From Mesorhizobium sp. 113-3-3 (lineage in GTDB: Bacteria; Pseudomonadota; Alphaproteobacteria; Rhizobiales; Rhizobiaceae), in the NCBI RefSeq assembly GCF_016756495.1, contig NZ_AP023243.1, forward strand, positions 4,902,501 to 4,966,500: 64,000 nt of DNA, given 5' to 3'. The notes below the pieces were generated by a model. That model was not told the DNA's origin and did not search any database. It saw only the letters and a program-made list of their open reading frames with translations. This document shows, one piece after another, positions 9,546-25,510 of the stretch. The position numbers and the translations under genes are program-made. Positions within the stretch are counted from its first letter, which is position 1; each line of letters opens with the position of its first letter.

Positions 9546-9575
9546 GCCAACCTCCTACCAGATGCCTGCCAGGGT

Positions 9576-9998: not shown

Positions 9999-10211
9999 TT
10001 TGATTTCTCCTTTCTATATTCGGAACTTGCACCGTATCGGTGACCTCGGACGCCGATGTGGTCGCCAATGGCATCGAAAAGGCTTGGTGCGGTTTGCCAT
10101 GGCGGGAGCGGCCCGCATTGAAGATTTCGGCCAAAACGGCCGAGGCAGCGGACCCAAATGGCGAGCCGACGAGAAGACCCAGGTCCGAGCAGACTGACGA
10201 AGGCTGAAGGG

Positions 10212-10984
10212 ATGGAAGCTGTACTGGCGCAGACCACCGGCTTTTTCCAGGAACGCCCCGCGGACAGGCGGCTGGCTGCCGCTTTCGCGTCCGTCTGGGT
10301 CCACCGCATGCAGGACCGGGACGCTCCGCCTGTCGTGATAACCCCGGATGCGACGATCGACCTGCAGTGGATCGACGGCCGGTTCCGGGTCGCGGGACCG
10401 GACCGGGAGCCGCAGATCGAGACACTGCCGTCAGGATCGACGATTGTCGGATTGAGATTCCGGCCAGGGGCGGCCGCCGGCTGGCTGGGCGTGCCGGCCA
10501 ACCGGATCGTGGGAGAACGCCTTGACCTCGGCGACCTCTGGGGTGAGCGGGCGCGCCATCTGGCGGACCGTATCCACGCCACGCCCGATCTCGCCGGCAT
10601 GGTAAGACAATTGGAGGAGGCAATCGGGGCACACACGCTAGAGCACCGTGCATCCGACACGGTCATGGGCCATGCCTTCGATCTGATTGACCAAGGACGC
10701 CAGCCGACAAGCCGCTGGTGCCGTACCTGCTGCGCACCTTGCATTTGAGCGAGCGGACGCTGCGTCGCCGTTTCGAGGAAAGTTTCGGCTACGGCCCCAA
10801 GACGCTCGACCGCATCCTGCGCTTTCATCGCTACCGGTGCCTGAGGCAAACGTCCAGCGATGCTTCAACCGCGATGCTGGCGGTCGAAGCCGGTTATTCG
10901 GATCAGGCTCATCTGATACGCGAGAGCAGGCGACTGTCCGGCGCCACGCCATCGACTTTCGCAGGCGCCTCGTCGAGAACATAG
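10212..10984 (+). pseudogene. AraC-family transcriptional regulator, frameshifted
   Basis: The N-terminal ligand domain (DUF6597-type: IDLQWIDGRFRVAGPDRE, STIVGLRFRPGAA) reads from ATG 10212 to about 10700 in one frame. The C-terminal HTH_18 domain (LHLSERTLRRRFEESFGYGP, LRFHRYRCLR, AGYSDQAHLIRESRRLSG) continues in another frame from about 10703 to the stop at 10984. The two halves are collinear with the intact family, so a single indel near 10690-10703 separates them. This may be a real pseudogene or a sequencing error. Confidence 0.72.
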
Positions 10985-11020: not shown

Positions 11021-11869
11021 CTACTCTCCGGCCAGCCACTCCAGCGACCAGTGCGCCGGCTTTTCCACGGCGAGCAATTTGTGCAGGGCCGGCAACACGG
11101 TTCGCAATTCGCCTTCCAGCGTGAAGGGCGGGTTGACCACCACCATGCCGCTGCCATCGAGGCTGGGTTCCGAAGAGGCCGGCCTGATCTCGAATTCTAT
11201 GTCGAGGATTTTCGGGATGCCCGATTGCTTCAGCGCCTTCCTGAAGGCGATCACCGCCTTGCGGTCCTTGATAGGATACCACAGCGCATAGATGCCGCCG
11301 GGCCAGCGCTTGTGCGCCCTGGTGAGCCCGTCGACGAGGCGGCCGAACTCGCCCTCCTCCTCGAAGGGCGGATCGATGAGCACAAGGCCGCGCTTTTCCT
11401 TCGGCGGCACATGCGCGCCGAGTGCCAGCCAGCCATCGAGTTCCATCACCCTCACCTGGAAATCGCCGACGAATTCCGCCTTCAGCTTGGCGGCGTCTTT
11501 CGGATGCAGTTCGATCGCCGACAACCGATCCTGCTTGCGCAGGAGGTGGCGCGCGAGCAGCGGCGAACCCGGATATTTCTTGACGCCGTCCCCGGGATTG
11601 AGCGACCGCACCGCCTCCAGATAAGGCGCCAGCAGCGCGGCCGCCTTCACATCGAACGAGGCATCTATCAGCCTGCCGATGCCGCCCTGCCACTCGCCGG
11701 TCTTCTGCGCCTCGACCGAAGACAGGTCGTAGCGGCCGATGCCGGCATGGGTGTCGACGACACGAAACGCCTTGTCCTTCTGCTTGAGATAGTCGAGCAG
11801 GCGTGTCAGCACGACATGCTTGACGACATCGGCGAAATTTCCGGCGTGGTAGGCGTGGCGATAGTTCAT
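11021..11869 (-). CDS. rlmJ: 23S rRNA (adenine(2030)-N6)-methyltransferase RlmJ
   Basis: This 282-residue SAM-dependent methyltransferase modifies A2030 of 23S rRNA. The diagnostic N-terminus NYRHAYHAGNFADVVKH is complete. VVDTHAGIGRYDL is the SAM-binding segment, and the N6-adenine catalytic motif appears as DPPFEEEGEF near residue 165. Family length and order are normal. A dispersed palindrome lies just upstream at 11884-11932. Confidence 0.93.
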   Translation of the reverse strand: MNYRHAYHAGNFADVVKHVVLTRLLDYLKQKDKAFRVVDTHAGIGRYDLSSVEAQKTGEWQGGIGRLIDASFDVKAAALLAPYLEAVRSLNPGDGVKKYPGSPLLARHLLRKQDRLSAIELHPKDAAKLKAEFVGDFQVRVMELDGWLALGAHVPPKEKRGLVLIDPPFEEEGEFGRLVDGLTRAHKRWPGGIYALWYPIKDRKAVIAFRKALKQSGIPKILDIEFEIRPASSEPSLDGSGMVVVNPPFTLEGELRTVLPALHKLLAVEKPAHWSLEWLAGE

Positions 11870-11883
11870 GATCCGTTGCCGTT

Positions 11884-11932
11884 ACGCATGTCGTTGTCCC
11901 AAAACCGCTGCACACTTTTGAGCGACATGCGT
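11884..11932. repeat. Dispersed rhizobial palindromic repeat (ACGCATGTCG arms)
   Basis: Perfect 10-base arms ACGCATGTCG (11884-11893) and CGACATGCGT (11923-11932) enclose the core AAAACCGCTGCACACTTTT (11901-11919). Almost the same core occurs at 57220-57238 with different arms, so both belong to one dispersed repeat family. It touches the stop codon of the following minus-strand gene. Confidence 0.65.
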
Positions 11933-12537
11933 CAACCCCTACCCCAACGCGGCGGCGGTGGTTGCGAGTTCGGGTTGTCCGGCCGGCCGCCGCCAGAACG
12001 CAGGGACAGCAGGAAGCCGATCAAACCGATCGCCATCAGCGAGAAACCGACCGGCCGCGCACGCCGGTCGGCTTCGCCGACGCCGGAGCGCAGGATGAGA
12101 TCGACCGCGCGCATCGGGATGTCCTCGGCATCGCCGGGGCCGACGGTGAAGACATAAGGACCGGAATTTACAGTGGCGATGACGCCGGCCTCGTCGCGAA
12201 AGATCTTGTCGGGCAGCTGCGGGCTGACCTGGCGCGGATTGTCGACATGGTTGAACTGCAGCGTCGAGGCAAGCACCGTGCGGCTATTGGTGGCGGCGGT
12301 CAGCGTCAACACCGTGCGCTGCTGCGAAACGATGCGTTCGGCCCGCGCGGTGAGATCGACCAGGACCCGTACCGGCGCGTCGCGGCCTGACAGCGACACG
12401 GTCAGCGGCTTGAAGCGGCCTTGCTCATAGACCCGCCAGGTACCGATCTCGCGGCCGGAAAAATTGGTCATCGCCCAGGGATAGATGAGGCCGACGCCGG
12501 TGCCGGCGAGCAGGATCAGGACAAACAGAAAGCGCAT
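11932..12537 (-). CDS. Hypothetical two-helix membrane protein
   Basis: The 201-residue protein has an N-terminal hydrophobic helix (FLFVLILLAGTGVGLIYPWA). A soluble, beta-rich periplasmic region of about 135 residues contains GRFKPLTVSLSGRDAPVRVL, and a second helix lies near the C-terminus (FSLMAIGLIGFLLSL). The Pro/Gly-rich tail is cytosolic. I recognise no family; similar proteins occur in rhizobia next to unrelated genes. It lies downstream of TetR gene 12556-13233 on the same strand with an 18-base gap, so cotranscription is likely. Confidence 0.7.
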   Translation of the reverse strand: MRFLFVLILLAGTGVGLIYPWAMTNFSGREIGTWRVYEQGRFKPLTVSLSGRDAPVRVLVDLTARAERIVSQQRTVLTLTAATNSRTVLASTLQFNHVDNPRQVSPQLPDKIFRDEAGVIATVNSGPYVFTVGPGDAEDIPMRAVDLILRSGVGEADRRARPVGFSLMAIGLIGFLLSLRSGGGRPDNPNSQPPPPRWGRG

Positions 12538-12555
12538 TCAGAACTCACCCCGTAG

Positions 12556-13233
12556 TCACACCTTGCCGGACAGCTGGCTTGCGCCGGCACCGTCGCGCAG
12601 GCGTTCCATCTCGTCCAGCAGCATGTCGAGGCCGAGTTCGAATGTTTTGTCGAATTCGGCGGTGCCGAAGAAGCGCCCGGCGGCCATGACATTGGGAAAA
12701 TCCCGGGCCAGTTGCTCGTCGCTGACCGTGTTCACCGCCGACGGGCCCTTGGCATAGCCGGCGTTCTCGTCCAGCACCGCGCCCATCAGATAATAACCGA
12801 CGGCACGGAAAAGCCTGGCGCTGAGTTCGGCGTCGAAGCCGCCATCCCTGAACAGGCTCAGAATGCCGTTCAGCCAGGCAAGGCAGATCGGCGAGTTCAT
12901 CCGGTAAGTGACGAAGAAAGCAGCATAGGCGGGATGGTCGTGGCCGATACGGCGAAAATCCTCGATGGCGACGCGCATTCTTTGCCGCCACGGAAGGCCG
13001 GCGTCAGGGATTTCAAGAGGACCGACCAGGCGGTCGACCAGCGCTTCGTGCAAATGCGCCACCGAAGGAAAGTGGTGATAGATGCTCATCGCCTCGCAAC
13101 CGAGTGCCGCCGCCAGCTTGCGCATTGAAAAGCCGGCGAGCCCTTCCTTCTCGATCACCTCGAAGGCAGCGTCCTCGATCATTTCGCGCGACAGGCGCCC
13201 GCGCACTCGCTTTTTTTTGATTGATGAGTCCAT
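12556..13233 (-). CDS. TetR/AcrR-family transcriptional regulator
   Basis: About 225 residues. The HTH lies at ~15-60 (LSREMIEDAAFEVIEKEG, MRKLAAALGCEAMSIYHHF) with a basic N-terminal tail KKKRVRGR. A TetR_C-type ligand domain with an all-helical pattern follows. I choose the ATG at 13233; a TTG five codons earlier is open but would overlap the operator region. It is divergent from the secreted CMD gene, and two matching palindromes in the shared promoter indicate that it represses both. Confidence 0.87.
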   Translation of the reverse strand: MDSSIKKKRVRGRLSREMIEDAAFEVIEKEGLAGFSMRKLAAALGCEAMSIYHHFPSVAHLHEALVDRLVGPLEIPDAGLPWRQRMRVAIEDFRRIGHDHPAYAAFFVTYRMNSPICLAWLNGILSLFRDGGFDAELSARLFRAVGYYLMGAVLDENAGYAKGPSAVNTVSDEQLARDFPNVMAAGRFFGTAEFDKTFELGLDMLLDEMERLRDGAGASQLSGKV

Positions 13234-13248
13234 TGCGCCGCTTGACAA

Positions 13249-13293
13249 CTTACACTGTAAGGCTCATTTTCCGCATCACCTTACATCGTAAGG
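13249..13293. promoter_or_regulatory. Twin TetR operators in divergent promoter
   Basis: CTTAC-ACT-GTAAG (13249-13261) and CCTTAC-ATC-GTAAGG (13279-13293) are two copies of the same dyad, CTTACnnnGTAAG, about 30 bases (three helical turns) apart. They lie between the TetR start and the start of the CMD-like gene. A TTGACA-like -35 element overlaps the first copy at 13242. Confidence 0.7.
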
Positions 13294-13318
13294 CTAACAA
13301 AGACCAGAGGAGAATGTC

Positions 13319-13789
13319 ATGTCCAGTTATCGCATTCTTTCATCCGTGCTTTCATCGCTACACCACCGCTGCCTGCTCGCCGCCGCCGGCTGTGCGCTGG
13401 CCCTGGTCGCGGCACCTGCCTATGCCGACGACTATGATGCGACCCTCAAGGATATCCAGGCGACCATGGGCGGCGTACCGAGTTTTGTGAAACAGTTTCC
13501 CAAGGCCGGTCTGCCCGGCGCCTGGGCCGAGGTCAAGGCCATTGAGCTCAACGACAAAACGGCGCTGCCGCCAAAGGTCAAGTCGCTGATCTCGCTGGCA
13601 GTGGCGGCGCAGATTCCGTGCAACTACTGCATCTGGTCGGACACGCAGGACGCCAAGCGCGCAGGCGCCACCGACGAGGAGATACAGGAAGCCGTGGCAA
13701 TGGCTGCGCTGACCCGCCATTGGAGCACCATCTTCAACGGCATGCAGGTCGATTTCGACACATTCAAGAAGGAGATGGGCGGGCAGTAG
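13319..13789 (+). CDS. Secreted carboxymuconolactone decarboxylase (CMD/AhpD-like) family protein
   Basis: The 156-residue protein has a signal peptide ending at APAYA-DD (~36). The CMD/AhpD core follows: IPCNYCIW places the redox CxxC at C101/C104, followed by AKRAGATDEEIQEAV. The AhpD active site normally has His four residues after the second Cys; here that position is Asp (CIWSD), so classical AhpD chemistry is doubtful. A periplasmic thiol-redox or peroxide-related role is possible. It is expressed divergently from, and probably controlled by, the TetR protein. Confidence 0.84.
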   Translation: MSSYRILSSVLSSLHHRCLLAAAGCALALVAAPAYADDYDATLKDIQATMGGVPSFVKQFPKAGLPGAWAEVKAIELNDKTALPPKVKSLISLAVAAQIPCNYCIWSDTQDAKRAGATDEEIQEAVAMAALTRHWSTIFNGMQVDFDTFKKEMGGQ

Positions 13790-14103
13790 GCCATTCGACC
13801 TGGAAGCGGTCGACCGCCTCCAGGTTGATCCGAGCCCAATCGACAAAAGAGCAATGCGACCGTCTTGTCGTGCCCCGCCAGGGGATGGCCCGCGGATGCA
13901 GACCATCCCCCGGCTCAGGTATTTTACAACCGGTTGTGCCGAGGTGCCGTCGCGTGCATACGCGATCGCGCAATGGACGGCGCTCTCTACCTATGCGCTC
14001 AATGCCATTATCGAGATCATCGATGTTGCGGCGTGGAATGGACACAGGCGCTTTTTCTGACCAAAATGACCGTTGATCCGCGCCATGCGAATAAGAGGCC
14101 TTT
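13790..14103. other. Intergenic region, no gene recognised
   Basis: The 314 bases between the CMD-like gene and the small lipoprotein gene contain only short overlapping frames without ribosome sites. I see no strong hairpin terminator or repeat. Confidence 0.5.
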
Positions 14104-14331
14104 ATGCACAAAGCCTTTGAGCAGTCCGATGAAGCAAGGTCGCGGTTCAAATCATCCCGGGCGCAGCGGTTTTCCATTCAATTTTTGGCTCTCGCCTTTC
14201 TATTCTCCATAAGTGGCTGCGATGAATCCTCTTTTCGCAAGGAAATACTGGCAAAGTATTCACACCCAGACATTTATATTTGCAGCCCAAGCGGCTTTGG
14301 CCAGCAGTCTCATTGCGAACTGAAAATTTGA
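14104..14331 (+). CDS. Small lipoprotein with C-terminal CSPSGFGQxxxC motif
   Basis: A 75-residue protein with a basic N-terminus, a hydrophobic segment and a lipobox ending ISGC (Cys39), so the mature lipoprotein is only about 37 residues. Its C-terminus carries IYICSPSGFGQQSHC. The same CxPSGFGQxxxC tail ends the lipoproteins at 16929 and 18749. AAGAGG precedes the ATG by six bases. The local DNA is AT-richer than neighbours. Function is unknown, but the shared motif ties it to the adjacent polysaccharide genes. Confidence 0.7.
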   Translation: MHKAFEQSDEARSRFKSSRAQRFSIQFLALAFLFSISGCDESSFRKEILAKYSHPDIYICSPSGFGQQSHCELKI

Positions 14332-14858
14332 CATCCGCGGGGGATTGCCCAAGGCCGCTTTTTATTTAGGTATATTTCCTTGGATACGGTCCGAGACGCG
14401 CGATGGAGTGGCGGCCTCGGCATTCTCAGCCCCAGCATTGCATCGGCGGTCGATCCAAACCATTGACTTGCAACGACTATCTCCCCGGACGCTCACGGTC
14501 TGGATTTGCAGGCCCGAGCCTATCCGAGGGTTAACCATTCGCGAATTGTTGTAGTTAAGAAATTACTAATTTAGTTGACTATGATCCCTACAGGTATATT
14601 TTTAGTACGTTGGGATGTGCAATTTGGGCGAGCAATCGACGATGACGGCACCGAGCGTGTGATCGCGATTTTGGGGCGTGGAAGCGGGTGAGCGGCCGCA
14701 CGTAAACCGTGCGGCCCGACCCGGCGAACCCAAAGGTCAGTTAACGCACATCAATGGGCAGCAAATCCGCTGATGCGGAGGGTTTGTCACGTTCTGAAGG
14801 CGTTGCCGGGCCGTTGTCCCGGCGCGGCGATAGCGTGCGCGTTGCGTAGGGGAAAAGC
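14332..14858. promoter_or_regulatory. AT-rich leader/promoter region of the uxs-epimerase operon
   Basis: This 527-base non-coding stretch contains several elements. TTAACCATTC is at 14531 and the 13-mer TAATTTAGTTGAC at 14567-14579; the latter recurs inverted upstream of the GT2 gene. A perfect 9-bp hairpin, GGCCGCACG-taaac-CGTGCGGCC, lies at 14694-14716 and may be in the mRNA leader. AT-rich boxes of this sort are typical targets of the rhizobial MucR/Ros regulators of polysaccharide genes, which is inference. Confidence 0.5.
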
Positions 14859-15899
14859 ATGAGCAAGATCATCAAGGTTCTGAAACTGGGATCCGGGATC
14901 GGTCAAAGGGAGCCTCACCAAAAACGACGTCGCGCCCTGGTTGCCGGGGGCGCAGGTTTCCTGGGGTCGCATCTGTGTGAACGCCTGTTGCGGGACGGGT
15001 ATGACGTCGTCGCGCTGGACAATTTCCACACCGGCAAGAGATACAATCTCAACACCCTTCTGCGCGATCCCAGATTCACCTGCATCGAGCACGACATCGT
15101 CGATCCTCTGCCTGTCGGCCTTGAGGCCGACGAGATCTACAATCTCGCCTGCCCTGCCTCTCCGCCACACTACCAGGCGGATCCGATCCATACATTCAAG
15201 ACGAGCGTGCTCGGTTCGCTGAACCTTCTGGAACTCGCGCGCCGGAACAATGCCAAGATATTCCAGGCCTCGACCTCGGAGGTTTATGGCGACCCGTTAG
15301 TGCACCCGCAGCCCGAGAGCTATTTTGGCAACGTCAACACGCATGGACCGCGGTCCTGCTATGATGAAGGCAAGCGCTCGGCCGAAACCCTGTTCTTCGA
15401 CTATTCGAGGACATATGGGCTCGACATCCGCGTTGCCCGCATCTTCAACACCTACGGCCGCCGCATGCAGCCCGATGACGGGCGCGTGGTCTCGAACTTC
15501 ATCGTCCAGGCGTTGCGCGGCGAAGACCTGACCGTCTATGGCAGCGGCCTGCAAACCCGTTCCTTCTGTTACGCCGACGACCTTATCGAGGGCTTCATAC
15601 GGCTGATGAATGCGCCGCGCGCGCCTGCCCATCCGGTCAATCTCGGCAACCCCGGCGAGTTCACCATCATGGAACTCGCAACGCTGGTTGTCGGCTACAC
15701 CAATTCGAGGTCGAAGATCGTGCATCGGCCATTGCCGGTCGACGATCCCAGGCAGCGCAAACCGGATATTTCCTTCGCCAGGGACAATCTTGGTTGGGAG
15801 CCGAGGATCAACCTGGCCCAGGGGCTCGCCCACACCGTCGACTATTTCGACACCTTGCTCTACGGACGCAGGATGATCACCGGGGCCGCGGCTTCATGA
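14859..15899 (+). CDS. uxs1: UDP-glucuronate decarboxylase (UDP-xylose synthase, Uxs-like)
   Basis: This 346-residue extended SDR converts UDP-glucuronate to UDP-xylose. The NAD motif [15 protein letters not shown] starts near 29. [10 protein letters not shown] near 98, a hallmark of the UXS subfamily, contacts the sugar acid. The catalytic YDEGKR is near 167, with R-rich sugar-nucleotide contacts in [18 protein letters not shown] short basic N-terminal extension of ~25 residues precedes the Rossmann fold. Its stop overlaps the start of the epimerase gene (ATGA). The product is a precursor for a xylose- or arabinose-containing surface polysaccharide. Confidence 0.9.
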
Positions 15900-16927
15900 G
15901 CCGACCGGCGGTCCTGGTCACAGGTGGAGCCGGCTTCATCGGCAGTCACACCTGCAAGCTGCTGGCCGCCGCCGGTTATCTGCCCGTGGCTTTCGACAAT
16001 CTGAGCCGCGGCAACCGGAAATCCGTCGCCTGGGGACCTCTTGTCGTCGGCGATATCCGGAACCGGGATGCGCTGCGGGCGGCGATCGGGACGTACCGGC
16101 CGATTTCGGTCATCCACTTCGCGGCGCTGGCTTATGTCGGGGAATCCGTCGGCGAGCCGGCCGACTATTATTCGACCAACGTGACCGGGACCATCGCCGT
16201 GCTCGACGCGGCTCGCGCGCACGCCGTCGACAACATCATCTTCTCCAGCAGTTGCGCCACCTACGGCGTGCCGGAGGCGTTGCCCGTTCGCGAGACCTCC
16301 TTGCAAAATCCGATCAGCCCTTACGGGCGCACCAAGCTGATGGGAGAGCAGATCATCGGCGACTATGCGTCCGCCTATGGGATGAGATTCGCGATCCTGC
16401 GCTATTTCAACGCCTGCGGCGCCGATCCCGATGGCGAGCTCGGCGAGTGGCATTCACCGGAAACGCATCTCGTTCCCAGGGTGCTGATGGCGGCGTCCGG
16501 CATCACCGACGAAATCGAAGTCTTCGGCACGGACTATGACACGCCGGACGGCACCTGCGTGCGTGATTATATCCATGTCAGCGACCTGGCCAGCGCCCAC
16601 CTGAAAGCGCTCCAGCATCTCGAGGGCGGCGGACAAAGCCTGGCGGTCAACCTCGGCACAGGACGCGGCGTATCCATCCGGGAGATCATACAGGCGGTCA
16701 GCCGGATAACTTCAAGACCGGTTCCGGCCGTCTTCAGAGCCAGGCGCCCGGGAGATCCGGCAGAGCTCTATGCCGATCCGGGCAAGGCGCGCGCCGATCT
16801 TGGCTTCGTGCCGCAGCTTTCCGACATCGACACGATCGTCAGGACGGCGGCCCCGTTCTTCGGATTGCGGGCAAAGCCGGCGGACCTGCCGCCAGGCAAG
16901 GCGGGGGCATCGCTCGCTGCTCGCTAG
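15896..16927 (+). CDS. galE: UDP-hexose/pentose 4-epimerase (GalE or Uxe type)
   Basis: A 343-residue extended [12 protein letters not shown] near 10 binds [11 protein letters not shown] near 118 holds the catalytic Ser, and SPYGRTK near 144 holds Tyr/Lys. [16 protein letters not shown] and [11 protein letters not shown] are classic GalE segments. It interconverts UDP-Glc/UDP-Gal, but directly behind a UDP-xylose synthase it may act as a UDP-xylose 4-epimerase producing UDP-arabinose, as Uxe does in Sinorhizobium meliloti. The ATG at 15896 overlaps the uxs stop. The alternative upstream start would overlap uxs by 100 bases and is rejected. Confidence 0.87.
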
Positions 16928-16928
16928 A

Positions 16929-17342
16929 TCAGAGATAGCGCGGGTGGCAACTGGCGCGCTGGCCAAATCCGCTGGGACTGCAAACATAGGGCGAACTACC
17001 CGGAAACGATCCGCCAATGGCCGGATTGTAGGAGATCCTCACGGGTCCCGGCGCGCCGATTTTGACCCGCTGCGGTGATACGAAAGCGTAGTCGATTTCG
17101 GTCGACCCTATCGTGCTCGTCATCAGAATCTGAGGCTCGGCTCTAGGCGAATGAACCGTGGACATGGCGTAGACCGGCGGAACCGCGGGTTTGACGCGGG
17201 CCGGGTGGACGACGGGCTTGAGAGCGACCGCATCGGTTTTGGTCGGATCCAGGCCCTGACAACCCGAAATGATCGCCACGGCCGCAACAATGCATAGGTT
17301 GTACTTGCCTGGGCGAAATGCGCCCGTCGTGGAATTGCTCAT
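16929..17342 (-). CDS. Lipoprotein with C-terminal CSPSGFGQxxxC motif (paralog A)
   Basis: About 137 residues. A lipobox ISGC lies near residue 28, then a Lys/Pro/Val-rich middle. The C-terminal module matches that of the gene at 18749: GPVRISYNP, then SPYVCSPSGFGQRASC. The two Cys of the 12-residue loop could form a disulfide in the periplasm. A GTG precedes the ATG at 17342; I choose the ATG because GGAGGGG sits at the right distance. It converges on the epimerase gene with one base between stop codons. Family unknown. Confidence 0.75.
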   Translation of the reverse strand: MSNSTTGAFRPGKYNLCIVAAVAIISGCQGLDPTKTDAVALKPVVHPARVKPAVPPVYAMSTVHSPRAEPQILMTSTIGSTEIDYAFVSPQRVKIGAPGPVRISYNPAIGGSFPGSSPYVCSPSGFGQRASCHPRYL

Positions 17343-17417
17343 CACGTGTCCCCTCCTAATCAGGCCAAGGGCGAGGTGCGGCGTTCCATGCTCTCGTTGC
17401 CTTCACGCCGCATGAGT

Positions 17418-17470
17418 AGCCACCCGCCACTTACAATCACGCCGAATATTAGACAATGCTTATTAAACAA
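17418..17470 (-). promoter_or_regulatory. Upstream block conserved with that of the 18749 paralog
   Basis: The stretch CGCCACTTACAATCACGCC-GAATATTAG...CTTATTAAA reappears at about 19244-19290 with few changes, in each case 90-130 bases before a CxPSGFGQ lipoprotein start. It contains TAATATTC-like and TTTAATAAG elements on the minus strand that could be promoter or regulator-binding sequence. Confidence 0.55.
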
Positions 17471-17761
17471 ACCGTGCAGTCAGGCGCAACCTCTCGCCTT
17501 TTTGGGGAATGGAATGCAATTCATTGGGGATCGGTGCCCCGGCGACTCCGGTCGGACCCCATCCCTCAGCCTTCACGATAAGTGATTCGCAACTTCCTGG
17601 ACAGGTTCCCAGCAGGCAGCCTGCCGTCGAACCAGAGACCGATTTGGCGGTCCAACCCGCCACAATGGGGCGAAGCAGGATCGCGAAAACCGCCGGCCGC
17701 GACAATTCTCATTGCGGCACGCCGCAAGGCACCACCGGGCTCAGTATGGCTGAAACGCGAC

Positions 17762-18361
17762 CTAGTTATTGGAATCGATCAGCTTGCGGGTCTCTTCGAA
17801 CTGCGCGGCCTTGGTGTCGCCCACCTCGAATTTCCGGTATTCGTCGGAAAGGTCCTCGGGGGTTCGCTTGAAGCTGTACCACGCCCCGTCCGGATCCTTT
17901 CGCTGCTCGATGGCCCCGCCCCTGACACGGTGGCTGTAGCAGGTGCGTTGCGGCTTGCCCTTGTAGCTCTTGGTTCGCCAGGCGACTTCCATGCACATCT
18001 TGCCGTCTTTGGTCACCAGCCACCTGCCCTCGGCGACGGAGGCTGAGTCCTGCCCCGACGTCCAGGCCCGGAGAGGGCGGGCGGCCTGTCCAAAATAGGC
18101 GGCCCCGTCTTTCCATAGCCATGTGCGGTTCGAGTAGAGAAGCTGCAGCTCATAGGCCGTCGGCACGGTGACGGCGGCTTCCGCAGGTTTGGGGTTCTCT
18201 TCGCTGGCCGCCCGAGCTGTTCCGGAAAGCGCCAACTGACCACAAACGACCAGCAGGAGCGCAAGCCAAACGCGTCTGCCGGACTGGCGGCGTTCCCGCT
18301 CACGACCTGTGCAAGGCCAGGGCAATCCGGTCGAAACTGTCAGCGCAATCAGCGGTCGCAT
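17762..18361 (-). CDS. DUF995 family secreted protein (paralog A)
   Basis: About 199 residues from ATG 18361 (a GTG at 18373 is also possible; the frame is open to 18523 but without a good start). A Sec signal segment (VWLALLLVVCGQLALSGTARA) follows a long basic n-region. The DUF995-type domain shows LLYSNRTWLWKDGAAYF, RAWTSG, GKMCMEVAW, RTCYSH and PDGAWYSFKR. It aligns along its length with the protein at 22946. The domain function is unknown; its position inside a polysaccharide locus suggests a periplasmic role in polymer handling. It lies between the two lipoprotein paralogs on the same strand. Confidence 0.75.
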   Translation of the reverse strand: MRPLIALTVSTGLPWPCTGRERERRQSGRRVWLALLLVVCGQLALSGTARAASEENPKPAEAAVTVPTAYELQLLYSNRTWLWKDGAAYFGQAARPLRAWTSGQDSASVAEGRWLVTKDGKMCMEVAWRTKSYKGKPQRTCYSHRVRGGAIEQRKDPDGAWYSFKRTPEDLSDEYRKFEVGDTKAAQFEETRKLIDSNN

Positions 18362-18748
18362 TTCGGTTTTCACACCCCGATCCAGCGTAGCGCCGACACG
18401 ACCATGACCCAGAACGCCCCACCACGGAGCGTTCTCTCCATCGACACAACGCTGGATTTCCCAGGCCGCGCGGTCAGCAGTTGGTTTTGCGAGTATTAAC
18501 AGCCGGGCAAAGACCGATGTCAATCTTTTGCGCCGTAACGAGGTGCCACGGGCCGAGGGACCAACAAGCCCCGTAAACCAGGCCGGCCTACGACTTCGAC
18601 GTCAGGCCACGAGAGCCGACCTAAGACGGCGCGAAGACGCGTGTCGATCGGTATCTGTGCAAATGGAAATCCGGGCGCGGGAGGCGGGTGGCGAAGCCTT
18701 AGCCGCCCGATTTCTCACGCCCGGATTCCGTCCCCCACTGAACTCTTG

Positions 18749-19159
18749 CTAGCGCGCGCGGCAAGTCGCGCGCTGGCCAAATCCGCTTGGACCGCAGATC
18801 CAGGGCGAATGGCCCAGGAGCGGGCCAGCATTGCCCAGCCTGTAAGAAACCTTCACCGGCGCCGGCGTGACGATCCTGGCCGGCCGCGGCCGCACGAAGG
18901 CGGCGTAGGCCGTTTCAGTCGTGCGCGTCACGCTGGTCATCTGGATGACGCGCTTGCGGTGGAACACGCCAACCCGCTTCTTTCCGACGTAGTGGATTTT
19001 CTTGGCGGATGCATGCACCGCGGGCTTGCCGGCGAGTGAGCCGGTCGTGGTCGCGTCCATGCTCTGGCAACCGGAAACCATCGACATCAATGCAATGGCG
19101 GCTATGGACCAGGCATTTTTCCTGCCCTTGGCAGCCGAACCCCTCATGAACTTGTTCAT
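18749..19159 (-). CDS. Lipoprotein with C-terminal CGPSGFGQxxxC motif (paralog B)
   Basis: About 136 residues. The lipobox VSGC is followed by QSMDATTTGSL, matching QGLDPTKTDAV in paralog A. The mid-region is rich in Lys/Val/Arg. The C-terminus reads APVKVSYRLG then PWICGPSGFGQRATC, clearly homologous to the gene at 16929. As there, a GTG is directly followed by the chosen ATG, preceded by AGGGGATAGG. Its upstream block is duplicated too, so gene and promoter duplicated together. Confidence 0.75.
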   Translation of the reverse strand: MNKFMRGSAAKGRKNAWSIAAIALMSMVSGCQSMDATTTGSLAGKPAVHASAKKIHYVGKKRVGVFHRKRVIQMTSVTRTTETAYAAFVRPRPARIVTPAPVKVSYRLGNAGPLLGHSPWICGPSGFGQRATCRAR

Positions 19160-19162
19160 CAC

Positions 19163-19461
19163 CTATCCCCTGCCGAGAAATGCAAGTCGATTGGACGCGG
19201 AGATATTTTTCTTTGGTGTCTTCCGCGCCGTGTGAACAGCCAGCCGCCACTCACATCATGCCCGAATATTAGGGGATACTTATTAAAATTCGCGCAAACG
19301 GCATGGTCAGCGCCGCCCTTCAGCGCTCGATCGGATATTATTAAAATTTGATCTTATTTGGCCGTGCCTGAAGCACAGCGGGTCACCGGCCGGCGATCGA
19401 AGCCGTCCATCAAGGTGAATGCAGTACAGGAGAGTTCTTTGCGCGCGGATGACCGCAGGCG
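19163..19461. promoter_or_regulatory. Promoter region of paralog B and 3' flank of the GT2 gene
   Basis: It includes the conserved block at about 19236-19290 (GCCACTCACATCATGCCC-GAATATTAG...CTTATTAAA). A nearby ATTATTAAAATTT stretch lies at 19335-19349. It is AT-rich relative to the window. No gene is visible. Confidence 0.5.
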
Positions 19462-21336
19462 TCAGCGCCGCGTTTCCCAACCCGGATCGAAGTAGAAATT
19501 GCGGGTGCCGATGTTGCCCTGGCCGGCGCCGGAAACCACATAGGCGATGCGCACGATGCGCAAGCCTCCCGCTCCCTGCTGCAGCCCATAGACGCCCTCC
19601 ATGCCACGATCGTAAAAACCCATGATCGGCACGGCAAGCGCCAGGATCGTGAGCGATGCCTGAAAGGCGAGTTTCGCGGCATTGGCGCGCAGCGGGATCC
19701 TGTTCTCGATGACATGCCTTACGACGATAACCAGCACCAGAAGCCCGTAGAGGAAGGCGTTGAGGGCCGCGAACCAGTAGAAGCCGGTGGCGTCGAAGGG
19801 ATGGTCGACGAGCAGGACGGGCAGCGCCGCACCGACCGCCAGCACCACATAGGGAACGAAGGCGCGAAACGGAATCAGGCTCTTTGGGCCACTGCCCTTC
19901 GGCGTGACGCGGAAATCCACGAACGACTTGGTCAGATAGTCGCGCAGCGACGACAGCGTGCCGGCCAGCACCCACGGCCAGCGCGCGAAGAAGAGGAACA
20001 GCGTGCCCTCCCAACTTATGGTCTTGGCCGTCATCGGTCGCGAGAGGCCGAATGCCTTCAGCATCATCACCAGGCCAACCAGGGCGCCGGCGTTGGGCAG
20101 GTAGTAGAAGAGGAAGTCGGCATACATGACATTGGCAAAGTTGCGCCCGGTGAACAGCGCATACATCGGCATTGCGTACATCATCAGCGCAAAGACGGCG
20201 AACAGCGGATACCAGAGCTGGCAGAACAGGAACTGGAACCGCAGTCTCGGCGGCAGCTTGGGAAAGTACGTGGGCGAATATTCGAGCAGGATCGTCATCA
20301 GGCTGCGCGACCACTGGAATTCCTGGGTGACGAGATCGGCAAAGGTTTGCGGGCCGTCGCCATGGGCAATAGCATCCATCGCATGCACGCCGCGCCATCC
20401 GGCCGCGTTGATCAGCATCGAGGTGGAATGGTCCTCCGCCAGTTCCGGGCCAAGACCGCCCGCCTGCTTCAGCGCCTCGGTCCGCACCGCATAGTGCGAG
20501 CCGATGCAGAGCGGCGCCCCGCCGCCGGTATGGCCGGATTGCAAGGGGCCGTGGAACATCCCTTCCGGAAACAGCCGGCCGCGCGCTGACCAGCTTTTGG
20601 CGGCATTGTTGTCGCAGATGCTCGGCGCCGAGACATAGCCGACCGCGGGATCGGCGAAGGGATAAAGGATTTCCCTGAGATAGGTCGGCGTCGGCACATG
20701 GTCGGCATCCATCTGCGCGACGAAATCGTAACGCTCATAACCATAGTGGTCATAGAAGAAGGCCAGGTTGCCTTCCTTGCAGCGCGTGCGGCGCGGCCAT
20801 GTCTTACGGTGGTAGTCCTCCCTGCCGCGCCGCGTCGATATCAGCACGCCGCGGGCATCGCACCAGCGGACCGTCTCCTCGGAAGGATCCTCGTCGGCCA
20901 GCCAGGTGTCATGGGGATAATCCTGCGCGAGCATTGCTTCCAACGTGCGCGCGACCACGGCGAAGGGTTCGGACGGCGCCTTGGTCACCACCATGGCAAC
21001 TCGCGAACGCTTCGGGATGCTGGAAAGCTTGGACGGTTTCCTCGACGCGTACACGTTGAGCAGGAAGTACATCGGCATCAAGGTCAGCCAGGCCAGCACC
21101 AGTGTGGCAAAGGTGAACGGTCCGATGTGTTCGATATGTTCCGGCTTCAGCCACCAGACCCAGAAAAAGCCCAGGGTGACGAACCAGAAAGCCAAGCCTG
21201 TCCGCAGAATCCATTGCTGGACGGGAGAGAACACAGGCACGAGAAAAGGCGCCTTCTGCGCCGCGTGGGCCAGAGTTGACCTGGGCTGCCTTGCCTGTCC
21301 GCTCGTACGGCCGATGATGCCTACGTCTAAACTCAT
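19462..21336 (-). CDS. Cellulose-synthase-like family 2 glycosyltransferase (processive beta-glycan synthase)
   Basis: About 624 residues. Two N-terminal transmembrane helices (~45-95) are followed by a cytosolic GT-A domain: VVTKAPSEPFAVVARTLEAML, ADEDPSEE, QMDADHVP (DxD), LAEDHST (TED-type catalytic base) and QEFQWSRSL (the QxxRW position, here QWSRS). At least five C-terminal helices then form an export channel. Length and layout fit BcsA/CrdS/BgsA-type synthases, but no PilZ domain is evident. The start is taken at MSLDVGII; an ATG six codons earlier is possible. It would polymerise and export the glycan whose precursors come from Uxs/epimerase. Product unknown. Confidence 0.87.
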   Translation of the reverse strand: MSLDVGIIGRTSGQARQPRSTLAHAAQKAPFLVPVFSPVQQWILRTGLAFWFVTLGFFWVWWLKPEHIEHIGPFTFATLVLAWLTLMPMYFLLNVYASRKPSKLSSIPKRSRVAMVVTKAPSEPFAVVARTLEAMLAQDYPHDTWLADEDPSEETVRWCDARGVLISTRRGREDYHRKTWPRRTRCKEGNLAFFYDHYGYERYDFVAQMDADHVPTPTYLREILYPFADPAVGYVSAPSICDNNAAKSWSARGRLFPEGMFHGPLQSGHTGGGAPLCIGSHYAVRTEALKQAGGLGPELAEDHSTSMLINAAGWRGVHAMDAIAHGDGPQTFADLVTQEFQWSRSLMTILLEYSPTYFPKLPPRLRFQFLFCQLWYPLFAVFALMMYAMPMYALFTGRNFANVMYADFLFYYLPNAGALVGLVMMLKAFGLSRPMTAKTISWEGTLFLFFARWPWVLAGTLSSLRDYLTKSFVDFRVTPKGSGPKSLIPFRAFVPYVVLAVGAALPVLLVDHPFDATGFYWFAALNAFLYGLLVLVIVVRHVIENRIPLRANAAKLAFQASLTILALAVPIMGFYDRGMEGVYGLQQGAGGLRIVRIAYVVSGAGQGNIGTRNFYFDPGWETRR

Positions 21337-21955
21337 ACCCTTACGCGCCGCCACTTTGGGCTGCAGCCAACGACCGCTGCAAAACCCTTAAATCCCCGCA
21401 GCAGAATCGGCCGTCACTCCGTTAGTGTCAACTAAATTAAATATTGCTTAACCATTCTTCTTGAGCGTTGGTTAACCTAACCCCTTGAACGGGAGCCCAA
21501 ACTTTTCGGCATGCAGGCCGATGGTCGACTTGGGAATAGACGTCCGATGAAATTTTCAGCGTTGGAAGAAAAGCTGATGGACCAAGGGCGCCCGATGCGT
21601 TTCCGGCAAGCTAGGCCCGTTAACCATGCCGAGCGTATCATGGTTAAGCAACCGTTAATTGTACTTGACTCCTGGTCGCGATCGGCTCTTAAATTAGCTC
21701 GGGATGATATATCGGAATATGACGCGAATTTGTGAGTATCGCGGCGAACCTTCTCTCTTGAGCTCCTCGTACCAGCGTCTTGAGAGATGATTTTCATGGT
21801 GGGATCGGTGCATAGCAACACCCGCCAATAGTCGCTCCAAATCCCGCAGATTCCGCCGATAAGCCGATAGGGTTTTGGACGATCGCGTCGATCACTCTTC
21901 GACGCGTGGGCGAGGCTTCGACTTCCGCAGGATATCGATGCCATGGGAGATTATC
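21337..21955. promoter_or_regulatory. Divergent promoter region of GT2 and GH26-like genes
   Basis: About 600 bases. GTCAACTAAATTA at 21427-21439 is the exact reverse complement of the box before uxs. TTAACCATTC is at 21448, GGTTAACC near 21471, and an inverted repeat TTAACCATG/CATGGTTAA occupies 21620-21628 and 21639-21647. Repeated TTAACC-type elements recall MucR or CtrA targets. Short frames on both strands lack support. Confidence 0.5.
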
Positions 21956-22879
21956 ATGAAAAATATCGCAGCAAGTGCGCTTGCAATCGCGCTGGTTTTG
22001 GGCGGCAGCGCCGCGTTGCCGACTTCGGCGGGCGCCGGCTCGGCAGCCGCGACGGATCCCGTTCAGACGAGCAGCGCCGCGTCGGCGTTCGGATCCTATG
22101 ATCCTTACGGCGACTTCAGCGCCGACAAGACCGCCAGCATCGAAGAGTTGTTCCTGCCTTGGGAAGACGTCGATCTGACGACCCTTCCCCTGGCCGATGC
22201 CTATGCCCTTCAGCGAAACCGGTCGCTCTTGATCACCATCGAGCCTTGGACCTGGTCGAAGGATTGGCGCATCACCCCGAACGAACTGCGCGACGGGATA
22301 TTGAGCGGCAGATATGACGCCAACATGCAGGCGATCTGCGACCTGGTGGGGGCCATGAAGAGCCCCGTCACCATTCGCTGGGCGCAGGAAATGGAGGACA
22401 AGAACGGTCGCTTCACCTGGGCCAACTGGGCACCCAAGGATTGGATCGCCGCCTACAAGCGCGAGGTCGACCTCTGCCGCAAGGCCGCTCCGGCCGCCAA
22501 ATACATGTGGTCGCCCAAAGGTGAAGAGGGTCTGGAGAAGTACTACCCTGGCGACGACTATGTCGACGTCATCGGCCTGTCGGTATTCGGCCTGCAGAAA
22601 AAGGACAATGACGAGGCCGGTCGCGACCGCACGTTCGCCGAAACGCTGATGCCCGGATATGACCGCGTCGCGGGTTTCAACAAGCCGGTCGTGGTGGCGG
22701 AGCTCGGCTATGTCGGGAAGCAGGAATATGTTTCGCAATGGGAAGGCGATTCCCGCAAGTCCTATTCCGAGTTTCCGGCGCTGACCTCGGTCGTCTACTT
22801 CAACCAGAAGGAGGTGTGGCCATGGTTGGGCGGCTATGGGCTGCCCGATTGGAGGGTTACCCAGCACGTCCTGCCCTAG
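21956..22879 (+). CDS. Secreted GH26-like beta-glycan hydrolase
   Basis: The 307-residue precursor has a signal peptide (ASALAIALVLGGSAALPTSAGA). The (beta/alpha)8-type domain shows VTIRWAQEMEDKNG near 143, where Glu would be the acid/base in the GH26 pattern R-x-x-x-E-x-x-G. KPVVVAELGY near 258 carries the candidate nucleophile Glu. WTWSKDW, RFTWANW and YVDVIGLSV fit beta-mannanase/glucanase folds. GGGAGA precedes ATG 21956. Periplasmic hydrolases often accompany synthases of this class and trim the nascent chain. Substrate not predictable. Confidence 0.78.
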   Translation: MKNIAASALAIALVLGGSAALPTSAGAGSAAATDPVQTSSAASAFGSYDPYGDFSADKTASIEELFLPWEDVDLTTLPLADAYALQRNRSLLITIEPWTWSKDWRITPNELRDGILSGRYDANMQAICDLVGAMKSPVTIRWAQEMEDKNGRFTWANWAPKDWIAAYKREVDLCRKAAPAAKYMWSPKGEEGLEKYYPGDDYVDVIGLSVFGLQKKDNDEAGRDRTFAETLMPGYDRVAGFNKPVVVAELGYVGKQEYVSQWEGDSRKSYSEFPALTSVVYFNQKEVWPWLGGYGLPDWRVTQHVLP

Positions 22880-22945
22880 GCATGCTGTGTCAGGTTGGGT
22901 GCAAGCGTAAGAACTGAGCGTAGCGTAAATTGTAGGGGTGGGGTC

Positions 22946-23464
22946 GTGAAACGAGTACTGGGCAATTCCATTGGAACGGCACTTGCCTGTTCCATAGCCG
23001 TCCTGGCCTTCCAGATTCCGGCGGTGGCCAAGACAGCGGCGCAGGTCGCCGACCTGGCCGAAAAGGCCGAAGCGGTGCCCGACGAAGGCATCTACCAGAT
23101 GTACCATAACCGTTCATGGCTCTGGGGCCGAAATGGTGCGGGTTATTTTGCCGTGCAGCGCCGTCAATTCAGCGCCTGGACTTCGGACAAGGGCAAGCCT
23201 GGCTATGGTGACGGGATCTGGTTCATCCCCGGAGGCGGCAAGCTTTGCTTCCGGGCAAAATGGCATGGCGCGGGAGGTGACTCCAACGCCCTCACCTGCT
23301 TCGAGCATCGTCAGAGCCGCAGGGTGGTCTACCAGCGCAAGCTGCCGGATGGCGGCTGGTACGTCTTCAGGAGTTCGCACCGCAACCTGGCGGACGAGTT
23401 CATGAAACTGAAACACGGCGACTATGTCAGCTGGAAACAGAAACGGATCAAGGCACAAGAGTAG
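22946..23464 (+). CDS. DUF995 family secreted protein (paralog B)
   Basis: About 172 residues from GTG 22946, preceded by GGGGTGGGG. A signal peptide ends at AVAKTA (~30). It shares with the 17762 protein the series MYHNRSWLWGRNGAGYF, SAWTSD, GKLCFRAKW, LTCFEH, YQRKLPDGGWYVFRS. Two conserved Cys (KLC and LTC) may pair. It is 66 bases downstream of the GH26-like gene on the same strand, so they likely form an operon. Function unknown. Confidence 0.78.
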   Translation: MKRVLGNSIGTALACSIAVLAFQIPAVAKTAAQVADLAEKAEAVPDEGIYQMYHNRSWLWGRNGAGYFAVQRRQFSAWTSDKGKPGYGDGIWFIPGGGKLCFRAKWHGAGGDSNALTCFEHRQSRRVVYQRKLPDGGWYVFRSSHRNLADEFMKLKHGDYVSWKQKRIKAQE

Positions 23465-23479
23465 CCTTATCGCCGGCTG

Positions 23480-23517
23480 AAGCGCGCCGCACCGATACGG
23501 GCTCATGCGGCGCGCTT
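23480..23517. terminator. Bidirectional hairpin between DUF995 gene and holC
   Basis: Perfect 12-base arms AAGCGCGCCGCA (23480-23491) and TGCGGCGCGCTT (23506-23517) lie between two converging genes. There is no T tract, so it may be a weak or Rho-assisted terminator. Confidence 0.6.
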
Positions 23518-23539
23518 GGGCCTCTGTTCGTGCCTGGCA

Positions 23540-23989
23540 TCAAGCCTTGCGCTCCCAGCGGCGGTCCGATGTCTGCTGCCAGTAGGTCACGGCATGGCCC
23601 GCGTCCTTCATCGTCTTCCAATGCGCCCTCGCCGCCTCGACCTGGGCGGCGTCATGGCCGTCGAACAGGAACACGGCACGCTCGTAACCGCCAAGGTCTG
23701 ATGGTACCGCGCCGTCGACCAGGAATCTTATCTTGGCCTCGTTGGGATTGCCGGCGCCCGTGGTCAACAGGATAGGCTGTTCGCCGGGATAAGCCTCGCG
23801 GTCGGTTGCGTGCGCCAGGAAAGAATCATCGCGGAAAGTCCACAGATGCTGGTCGAGCGCGTCGCGCCGTTCCTCGGTACCGGTCTGCACCACGGCGCGC
23901 CAGCCACGATCGACGCTGCGTTCCAGCAGGCCCGGCAGCGCCTCCTCCAGGGTCGATTCGGTCAGATGGTAGAACAGCACATCGGCCAT
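23540..23989 (-). CDS. holC: DNA polymerase III chi subunit
   Basis: The 149-residue chi subunit links SSB to the clamp loader through psi in the replisome. Typical features are the N-terminal VLFYHL, LERSVDRGWRAVVQTG, DDSFLAHATD and the PILLTTG...NPNEAKIRFLVDGA segment. The C-terminal WQQTSDRRWERKA is common in alphaproteobacterial HolC. It lies 9 bases downstream of pepA, as usual in this group, and is probably cotranscribed with it. Confidence 0.92.
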   Translation of the reverse strand: MADVLFYHLTESTLEEALPGLLERSVDRGWRAVVQTGTEERRDALDQHLWTFRDDSFLAHATDREAYPGEQPILLTTGAGNPNEAKIRFLVDGAVPSDLGGYERAVFLFDGHDAAQVEAARAHWKTMKDAGHAVTYWQQTSDRRWERKA

Positions 23990-23998
23990 GGATCAGGG

Positions 23999-25510
23999 TC
24001 AGCTCTCGTAGTGATCGCGCACCAGCCGGTCGAGCAGCCGCACGCCGAAGCCTGAGCCCCAGGACTGGTTGATCTCGCTCGACGGCGAGCCCATGGCGGT
24101 GCCGGCAATGTCGAGATGCGCCCAGGGCGTGTCCTTGACGAAACGCTGCAGGAATTGTGCCGCGATGATGGCGCCGCCATAGCGGCCGCCAATGTTCTTC
24201 ATGTCGGCGTTCTTGGAATCGATCAGCTTGTCGTATTCGGCGCCGAGCGGCATGCGCCACAGCCGCTCCTGCGTCGCCTGCCCCGCCGCAGCAAGCCTCT
24301 CGGCCAATTCGTCATTGTTGGAGAACAGGCCGGCATAATGCAGGCCGAGCGCGACCATGATGGCGCCGGTCAGCGTCGCCAGATTGACCATGAATTTCGG
24401 CTGGAAGCGGTCGTTGCAGTACCACAGCGCGTCGGCCAGCACGAGACGCCCCTCGGCGTCGGTGTTGAGCACCTCGATGGTCTGACCCGACATCGAGGTG
24501 ACGATGTCGCCGGGACGCTGGGCATGGCCATCGACGGCGTTTTCGACCAGGCCGATAATGCCGACGACATTGGCCTTTGCCTTGCGCGCGGCCAGCGCAT
24601 GCATGAGGCCGGTCACGGCGGCAGCGCCACCCATATCGCCCTTCATGTCCTCCATGCCCGAAGCCGGCTTCATCGAATTGCCGCCGGTATCGAAAGTGAC
24701 GCCCTTGCCGACGAAGGCGATCGGGCTGTCCTTGGGCTTGCCGCCGTTCCACTGCATGACGGCCATGCGCGCGCCGCGGGGCGAGCCTTGCGCGACACCG
24801 AGCAGCGAGCCCATGCCGAGCTTCTTCATCTCCTTCTCGGTCAGGATCTCGACCTTGACGCCAAGCGTCTCGAGTTCCTTGGCGCGGGCCGCGAACTCGA
24901 GCGGTCCCAATATGTTTGCCGGTTCGTTGACCAGGTCGCGCGCCAGAAGCACGCCGTCGATCACCGCCTCGGCATCGGCGAAGGCCTTCTTGGCACCTGC
25001 CGGGTCGGCCGTGTGGATGGTTATCTTGACCGGCTTCTTGGGATCGGCCTTTGCATCATCCTTGTCCTTGCTGGTCTTGTATTTGTCGAAGGAATAGCTG
25101 CGCAGGAGAATGCCCGCGGCAAGGTTGGCGGCATCCTTGCCGTCAGCCGAAGCGCCAACCAGGTCGAGCAGCACGGCGACGTCGGTTGCCTTGCGCAGCG
25201 ACGCTGCAATGGTGCCCCCGAGTTTCAGCCAGGCATATTCATCGAGCCCCGCCGCCTTGCCCGCGCCGATCGCGACCAACCTGTCGAGCGATGTTCCTTC
25301 CGGCGCCAGTATCTCGACGACGCCGGCGAACTTGCCGGTGAATTCGGCCACCGGAAAGGCCCGCTCCAACGTCTTGCCGGGGTCGTAAGCTCTGGCCGCA
25401 TCGCTCAGGCCGCCGTCATCCGCCGATAGCACGAAGACCGTGCCCTTCCTGTTCGCCGCCGTCTGGGGCGCGGCGAATTTTGCAAAGGCGATCGATGGTC
25501 TCGGGTTCAT
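23999..25510 (-). CDS. pepA: Leucyl aminopeptidase (M17)
   Basis: About 503 residues. The M17 fold has an N-terminal macro-like domain and a C-terminal di-zinc catalytic domain. [15 protein letters not shown] and [12 protein letters not shown] carry the metal-binding Lys/Asp residues, and [14 protein letters not shown] is the family signature with catalytic Arg. It removes N-terminal residues from peptides in the cytosol. Two adjacent ATG codons occur; the second (25510) is better spaced from AGGA. An upstream in-frame extension to 25648 lacks family similarity. Confidence 0.95.

Follow-up and report, generated by a model that had tools for sequence, protein, structure and literature searches.

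A probable Mesorhizobium form of the arabinose-polysaccharide locus, rearranged, without an adjacent cuxR and with CtrA-type boxes

Mesorhizobium sp. 113-3-3 carries a group of genes for a surface polysaccharide within a 64-kb stretch of contig NZ_AP023243.1 (the 7.1-Mb contig of a 7.73-Mb genome in 3 contigs); this whole stretch, the DNA that was analyzed, is called the window below. Open reading frame (ORF) lists, translations and Pfam placed nine genes within positions 14104-23464: tail protein 1, uxs and uxe on the plus strand, tail protein 2, DUF995a, tail protein 3 and a GT2-type glycosyltransferase gene on the minus strand, and a GH26-type glycosidase gene and DUF995b on the plus strand, the tail proteins being exported proteins that share a C-terminal motif. 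We consider this locus to be, in all probability, the Mesorhizobium form of the known arabinose-polysaccharide (APS) locus, rearranged, without an adjacent gene for the activator CuxR, and most likely switched by CtrA. Its features are the following (E, expectation value).

14104-14331, plus strand: tail protein 1, 75 amino acids, exported, lipobox-like stretch (regular expression), C-terminal CSPSGFGQQSHC, no Pfam family
14531-14538, plus strand: CtrA-type half-site TTAACCAT, upstream of uxs
14859-15899, plus strand: uxs, UDP-glucuronate decarboxylase (UDP-xylose synthase), 69% to S. meliloti Uxs1, PDB 2b69 at E 1e-107
15896-16927, plus strand: uxe, GalE-type UDP-sugar 4-epimerase, 61% to S. 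meliloti Uxe, best PDB match 4twr at E 1e-133
16929-17345, minus strand: tail protein 2, lipobox, C-terminal CSPSGFGQRASC, 39% to tail protein 3, no Pfam family
17762-18523, minus strand: DUF995a (ApsH type), PF06191 at 2.8e-39, 40% to ApsH2 and 32% to ApsH1
18749-19162, minus strand: tail protein 3, lipobox, C-terminal CGPSGFGQRATC, no Pfam family
19462-21336, minus strand: apsS, BcsA-type GT2 polysaccharide synthase without PilZ, Glyco_trans_2_3 (Pfam), 61% to S. meliloti ApsS over 592 residues
21437-21451, no strand: full CtrA-type box TTAA-N7-TTAA, apsS-proximal, motif match
21644-21658, no strand: full CtrA-type box TTAA-N7-TTAA, apsE-proximal, motif match
21956-22879, plus strand: apsE, predicted GH26-like periplasmic glycosidase, 53% to S. 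meliloti ApsE, Pfam GH26 at E 2e-5, signal peptide
22946-23464, plus strand: DUF995b (ApsH2 type), PF06191 at 3e-43, 50% to ApsH2, signal peptide, predicted eight-stranded barrel

All of the genes named in a preliminary description of the window were found in their places by ORFs, Pfam and PDB matches, and its count of five small exported proteins was correct (two DUF995 proteins and three proteins with a CxPSGFGQ tail). The uxe start overlaps the uxs stop by 4 bases. From the translations, the likely starts are the ATG at 21336 for the GT2 gene (the ApsS query, 19462-21339, was one residue longer at its front), the ATG at 21956 for the GH26 gene and the GTG at 22946 for DUF995b, the last two of which precede signal-peptide-like stretches; for DUF995a, the start within the listed ORF is uncertain and a signal-peptide-like stretch lies inside the ORF. 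No RNA element reached the gathering threshold in 13700-24100.

A search with the GT2 protein found matches of 59-61% on large replicons of Sinorhizobium meliloti and S. medicae. Compared with an S. meliloti locus (L003), the identities were 69% for Uxs, 61% for Uxe, 61% for ApsS and 53% for ApsE, while DUF995b matched ApsH2 at 50%, and DUF995a matched ApsH2 at 40% and ApsH1 at 32%. It is this gene-by-gene identity to the S. meliloti operon that makes the locus one of the APS kind, and the kinship to the uxs1-uxe region suspected in the preliminary description was borne out by orthologous genes and the same gene set. Orthology, co-occurrence, layout and boxes are read here from the sequence itself. 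Furthermore, the clustering is not due to chance, for in all 80 of the named loci described below the synthase is surrounded by most of these genes, as far as the contig extends.

The preliminary description had gone further and proposed a new type of surface-polysaccharide locus. The gene order and strand layout do differ from those of S. meliloti, there are three tail proteins, and CuxR is missing; the gene set, however, is that of the APS operon, with the GH26 gene and both DUF995 genes included, and a tail protein is also present at the S. meliloti locus. We therefore rejected a new type on the grounds of synteny with S. meliloti, and regard it as very improbable. Both this operon membership of the GH26 and DUF995 genes and the two full CtrA-type boxes between the synthase and GH26 genes had been missed. 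Similarly, the DUF995 genes, which had been presented as duplicated genes with no known role, are already named operon members (ApsH1 and ApsH2), although we found no account of how ApsH works. A failure of synteny in related strains had been named beforehand as a possible refutation; the layout was found to recur across the window-type loci.

APS was discovered as a cryptic polymer under forced cyclic di-GMP (c-di-GMP) (PMC7902896, PMC8546604), and the first of these papers records no evidence so far of a role in symbiosis (PMC7902896). S. meliloti has a second APS copy on plasmid pSmeSM11b (L004), with only a piece of CuxR. The replicon that carries L003 (CP090105.1, 1.66 Mb) is titled pSymA, a label that looks odd; the APS locus of S. 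meliloti belongs to pSymB.

We distinguished two types of APS locus, the window type and the classic type. Two sets of genomes were used, a named-genome scan in which the best 80 of 274 relatives were kept, and a set with G handles; since the genomes of the second set probably include those behind many named loci, the two are not independent. Overlapping weaker matches, and uxs or uxe matches below 42% identity, were dropped before loci were counted, as were ugd matches below 35% identity and motif hits that lay over 32 residues ahead of a stop in the layout table of the named loci. ApsS (E <= 1e-60) was found in 17 of 151 genomes of the family and in 69 of 146 genomes of the genus. Within the genus, the window type, at 73-100% identity, is found in 54 genomes and the classic type, at 52-60%, in 16, with G165 having both. 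The 80 named loci divide into 37 of the window type, all titled Mesorhizobium except two (Bacterium; Rhizobiales bacterium), and 43 classic loci from Rhizobium, Sinorhizobium/Ensifer, Phyllobacterium, Chelativorans, Nitratireductor, Pseudochrobactrum, Roseibium, some Mesorhizobium, and a few metagenome-assembled genomes or oddly labelled records. The genes holC, pepA and lptF lie in the stretch, as they do in the window, at 21/37 window-type loci versus 0/43 classic loci.

A few loci stand apart from the two types. In L080 (G160), a hybrid, uxs and uxe are 81% and 85% identical to the window type while the synthase is classic-like (52%), and neither CuxR nor a box is present. L116, L117 and L246 (from G152, G153 and G214) have no ApsS match, yet uxs, uxe, DUF995a and tail proteins are kept; at G152, ORFs for a large sulfatase-like membrane protein, an SDR-type protein and a GT2-type protein were seen by eye beside the retained genes. 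A record titled Bacillus subtilis SK6B4 (L235), another label that looks odd, has an APS locus with the Pseudochrobactrum layout.

The two types differ in the presence of CuxR, which was found at 36/43 classic loci of the named set versus 0/37 window-type loci; because 7/43 classic stretches also lack CuxR, we counted it towards the regulation of the module but not towards the module itself. Among genomes of the genus, 15/16 with a classic locus, 20/54 with a window-type locus and 32/77 without ApsS have a CuxR homologue, so that CuxR is no more frequent in window-type genomes than in those without APS. The preliminary description was right that no CuxR lies beside the locus, and at E <= 1e-40 the genome has no homologue at all, as is the case for 33 more of the 54 window-type genomes. 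An AraC-type regulator gene with a DUF6597 N-terminus does lie 3 kb upstream (10158-10984, plus strand), and looks frameshifted since it is spread over two overlapping frames; we rejected it as CuxR given its DUF6597-type N-terminus and its identity of 28% over the DNA-binding part only. In L121, from a Mesorhizobium without ApsS, a CuxR homologue (9253-10395, minus strand; 54%) lies next but one to GGDEF-EAL-like and SMC-like ORFs.

TTAA-N7-TTAA occurs twice in the window (21437 and 21644), both times between apsS and apsE, against an expectation of 0.02, and none of 100 shuffles contained two. The pattern is the CtrA consensus and TTAACCAT is its half-site (PMC3692519, PMC11527210, PMC9437464), and CtrA is reported to bind a site of a Mesorhizobium phage (PMC9437464). 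Four of the five half-sites in the window are in the locus. A box upstream of apsS was present at 37/37 window-type versus 0/43 classic loci of the named set, while in the G-handle set one or two boxes were found at apsS in 25/25 window-type versus 0/36 other loci, five of these 36 stretches having a box elsewhere. Spacing was examined in 33 stretches and the window, drawn from the 54 window-type genomes with no knowing selection, and promoters shorter than 400 bases were left out of the column and half-site counts. Pairs of TTAA were 7 bases apart in all 34 promoters and 20 bases apart in 33 (a third TTAA), whereas any other spacing from 0 to 20 was seen in at most three. Against a median identity of 64% among these promoters, each of the eight TTAA columns was kept in 34/34 for the box at 21644 and in 26 to 34 of 34 for the box at 21437. 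A half-site was also found in the uxs promoter at 15/23 window-type versus 1/41 classic loci.

Genome-wide, TTAA-N7-TTAAC gave 36 strand hits at 29 places. The neighbors of 30 of these hits were inspected, and by Pfam they included genes for a flagellin, FtsK, DUF1465 (the RcdA family; two boxes), MinC, a sigma-70 factor and a Wzz protein; at the other inspected places, no gene of evident CtrA type was seen. Direct targets of CtrA in S. meliloti include flaABC and minCD, and the searched text of that study contains neither "polysaccharide" nor "exopolysaccharide" (0 occurrences; PMC4433202). Among the titles and abstract starts listed by literature searches, a scope outside which most subscription papers lie, none connected APS with CtrA. 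In Phyllobacterium L221 and L228, TTAA-N7-TTAA precedes the cuxR match itself by about 175 bp, where CtrA could act one step above CuxR.

An alternative is that the locus is a plain APS locus still controlled by c-di-GMP, in which the boxes are bound by another factor, such as a silencer of AT-rich promoters, and the switch is an unlinked CuxR-type regulator or another c-di-GMP reader. The CuxR homologues elsewhere in 20/54 window-type genomes would fit this, binding of CtrA at the boxes is predicted, and in S. fredii cuxR belongs to a network of MucR1 and c-di-GMP (PMC8546604). However, the genome itself and 33 more of the 54 have no such homologue, half-sites recur before uxs, and because the spacing of 7 is found in every promoter while most others are absent, the boxes fit a dimeric site and not mere AT-richness. 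We thus judge continued control by c-di-GMP to be rather unlikely, albeit an alternative of some weight, and favor a switch by CtrA.

The tail proteins were compared across 83 loci (the window, L003, L004 and the 80 named loci). All 108 C-terminal matches to C-x-[PA]SGFG read C-[STG]-PSGFG-x4-C with a single spacing, while the remaining sequence is variable, and the reversed motif, used as a control, had no match in the named loci. A lipobox was found by regular expression in 84/108, and several Rhizobium and Phyllobacterium members look plainly secreted. Tail proteins occur at 36/43 classic loci, as one copy, usually directly 3′ of apsH2 on the opposite strand, and this is also the case in S. 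meliloti; they occur at 35/37 window-type loci, with one copy in 8, two in 22 and three in 5 within the stretch. Nine loci have none: in seven the contig ends after apsS, L220 is cut on its apsH2 side, and L239 has none in a full stretch. Upstream of tail proteins 2 (17346-17480) and 3 (19163-19310), we noted by eye a shared GAATATTAG-N5-6-CTTATTAAA, which may be a common promoter.

At the level of whole genomes, we counted the AGY form of the tail DNA motif, for which the per-genome table is complete, because the looser pattern was noisy. It was present in 69/69 genomes of the genus with ApsS versus 8/77 others (Fisher 5e-33), and in 15/17 versus 3/134 genomes of the family (Fisher 6e-16), tests that ignore kinship. 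The genome under study has three, all at the locus, and its two looser-form hits elsewhere are not tail proteins. Of the 11 genomes that match the AGY pattern but have no ApsS, all except G293 were read: G152, G153 and G214 have true members, each adjoining uxs, uxe and DUF995a, while seven lack the x4-C spacing. In genomes with ApsS, the pattern hits L255 and L256 are not tail proteins and L254 (G106) is a true one.

The tail proteins might be passengers, that is, a linked lipoprotein gene of unrelated function. Tail genes at classic loci usually lie on the opposite strand and outside the operon, one genome has an extra unlinked copy (L119), and G106 has its only copy on another contig. On the other hand, the linkage holds across genera, the tail gene has moved along with apsH2 in L217, and in the three ApsS-less genomes read that have a true copy, the tail gene still adjoins uxs, uxe and a DUF995 gene, with tail protein 3 of G152 lacking the second Cys. 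A passenger is therefore an unlikely explanation, and we favor a part of the APS machine. A search with the S. meliloti tail protein returned 36 proteins, none with a Pfam domain, named hypothetical or uncharacterized protein, secreted protein or lipoprotein. Nothing on-topic about a PSGFG tail family was found by title and abstract start, most subscription papers being outside this scope, and to the extent of that literature the family is undescribed so far, in agreement with the earlier remark that these lipoproteins have no described role. On the sequences compared here, a conserved exported protein family tied to the APS module is new. We propose that the tail could form a loop closed by a disulfide and dock on the polymer or on the APS machine.

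With regard to the polymer, a gene for UDP-glucose dehydrogenase (ugd) is present at 23/43 classic and 0/37 window-type loci (one was confirmed by Pfam). The assignment of Uxs and Uxe as precursor enzymes was supported by their best PDB matches, UDP-glucuronate decarboxylases and 4twr, respectively. Taken together, ugd, Uxs and Uxe make up a route from UDP-glucose to UDP-arabinose, which supports, short of proof, a polymer that would contain pentose. ApsE scores 24.6 bits against PF02156, above the family cut-off of 20.2, and also matches GH26 structures; its RWAQE aligns with 2ddx (a beta-1,3-xylanase) and its VAELG with 2bv9 (a GH26 endoglucanase) in separate alignments, and we presume the glutamates of both to be the GH26 catalytic residues. 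DUF995 was found in 17/17 family genomes with ApsS versus 3/134 without, and is thus nearly confined to ApsS genomes. The model of DUF995b is an eight-stranded, lipocalin-like barrel (predicted local distance difference test 87), for which there was no solved sequence relative up to E 1; as there was also no fold match at E <= 0.001, we claim no ligand. Nothing on-topic about the function of DUF995 was found in the literature by title and abstract start.

In the scheme that we propose, Uxs would convert UDP-glucuronate to UDP-xylose, and Uxe would convert UDP-xylose to UDP-arabinose and probably also UDP-glucose to UDP-galactose. ApsS, BcsA-like and in the inner membrane, would polymerize and extrude the chain, ApsE would trim it in the periplasm, and the two ApsH barrels and the tail proteins would handle the chain or anchor it, on the side of the periplasm or of the outer membrane. 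The module is split into several transcription units, unlike in S. meliloti, and CtrA would most likely switch it through the apsS-apsE boxes and the half-sites upstream of uxs. What we infer are the sugar content, the catalytic steps, the binding of CtrA and what ApsH and the tail proteins do.

The polymer could instead be a different heteropolysaccharide, made by a synthase of diverged specificity and carrying side groups from a lipid-linked-sugar cassette in many strains. The synthase identity of only 61% and the lack of ugd at all 37 window-type loci point in this direction, as does a cassette of GT2, flippase-like and PMT genes between tail protein 3 and DUF995a in M. ciceri WSM1271 (L189). 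Nevertheless, Uxs still has 69% and Uxe 61% identity to the S. meliloti proteins, ApsE and the two DUF995 genes stay with the synthase, and the window itself has no such cassette. A different polymer is accordingly possible but improbable, and we retain APS as the likely product. The WSM1271 cassette (11734-15519, minus strand) comprises GT2, LPG-synthase-TM/flippase-like and PMT_2-type genes; a gap of similar size is found at the same position in several other window-type loci. Such a cassette may add lipid-linked sugars to the polymer.

Taken together, these findings suggest a joint reading, to which we give about equal weight for and against: in a Mesorhizobium lineage, APS would have passed from c-di-GMP and CuxR to CtrA, becoming a coat timed by the cell cycle, and the C-x-PSGFG-x4-C family, probably a disulfide loop and expanded there to two or three copies, would be a regular but overlooked part of the APS machine, S. 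meliloti included. Several observations weigh against it and against control by CtrA. A CuxR homologue exists somewhere in 20/54 window-type genomes; in one of these, G165, it sits at 3.5 kb from the second, classic locus. Of the non-window loci without CuxR, only 2/16 (L066, L067) have a box in the 700 bp upstream of uxs, and of those that bear CuxR 0/56 do, a count that leaves out seven of 79 loci (with less than 3.5 kb before uxs, or no uxs). Single boxes are common, given that the reversed pattern has 20 strand hits in the genome compared with 36 for the box, and because window-type loci share descent, their 37/37 boxes do not represent 37 independent events. Moreover, the S. meliloti rcdA promoter is bound by CtrA, yet its expression was unaltered upon CtrA depletion (PMC4433202). 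With respect to the tail proteins, the family genomes G071 and G074 have ApsS and no tail motif, and one further genome (G106) has it only on another contig.

The likely change of control from CuxR to CtrA in a lineage-specific form of APS is new, to the extent of the titles and abstract starts listed. If true, CtrA-type boxes on the APS machine would tell when cells make APS, and the CuxR-type and CtrA-type promoters would form a natural pair in which to study how the master switch of a polysaccharide is exchanged. Concrete missing parts, testable in the S. meliloti model, are the tail proteins and DUF995, which hardly occur in genomes without the module.

It is useful to compare the locus with known systems. 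A bcs operon encodes a PilZ-bearing BcsA together with BcsB and BcsC. In line with the BcsA-like synthase of the preliminary description, the best PDB match of ApsS is the bacterial cellulose synthase BcsA, whose GT2 core and membrane region align with ApsS residues 51-423 (E 1.5e-20); in the alignment, QRGRW of BcsA corresponds to QEFQW of ApsS, and, as had also been noted, ApsS has no PilZ by Pfam, nor does the S. meliloti synthase. There is no bcsB or bcsC among the ORFs of the locus, and no listed ORF is left over that could be either. With the CtrA regulon of Alphaproteobacteria, the locus has in common the full box and the TTAACCAT half-site, and the same motif stands before flagellin, minC and DUF1465 genes in this genome. 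The APS-like cluster of Rhizobium favelukesii LPU83, compared by its description only, is of the classic type and plasmid-borne; its APS genes are reported as orthologous, most with more than 50% identity, and no wrinkled colonies were seen (PMC7902896). Compared with the S. meliloti APS operon (uxs1-uxe-apsS-apsH1-apsE-apsH2, with the activator CuxR), the Mesorhizobium locus is arranged in opposed units with a DUF995 gene on each side, lacks CuxR, has two to three tail proteins instead of one, and carries TTAA-N7-TTAA in the apsS-apsE promoter region, which the S. meliloti operon does not. Nonetheless, all six enzyme and accessory genes are common to both, with 32-69% identity, and the S. meliloti locus is likewise adjoined by an exported C-x-PSGFG-x4-C protein.

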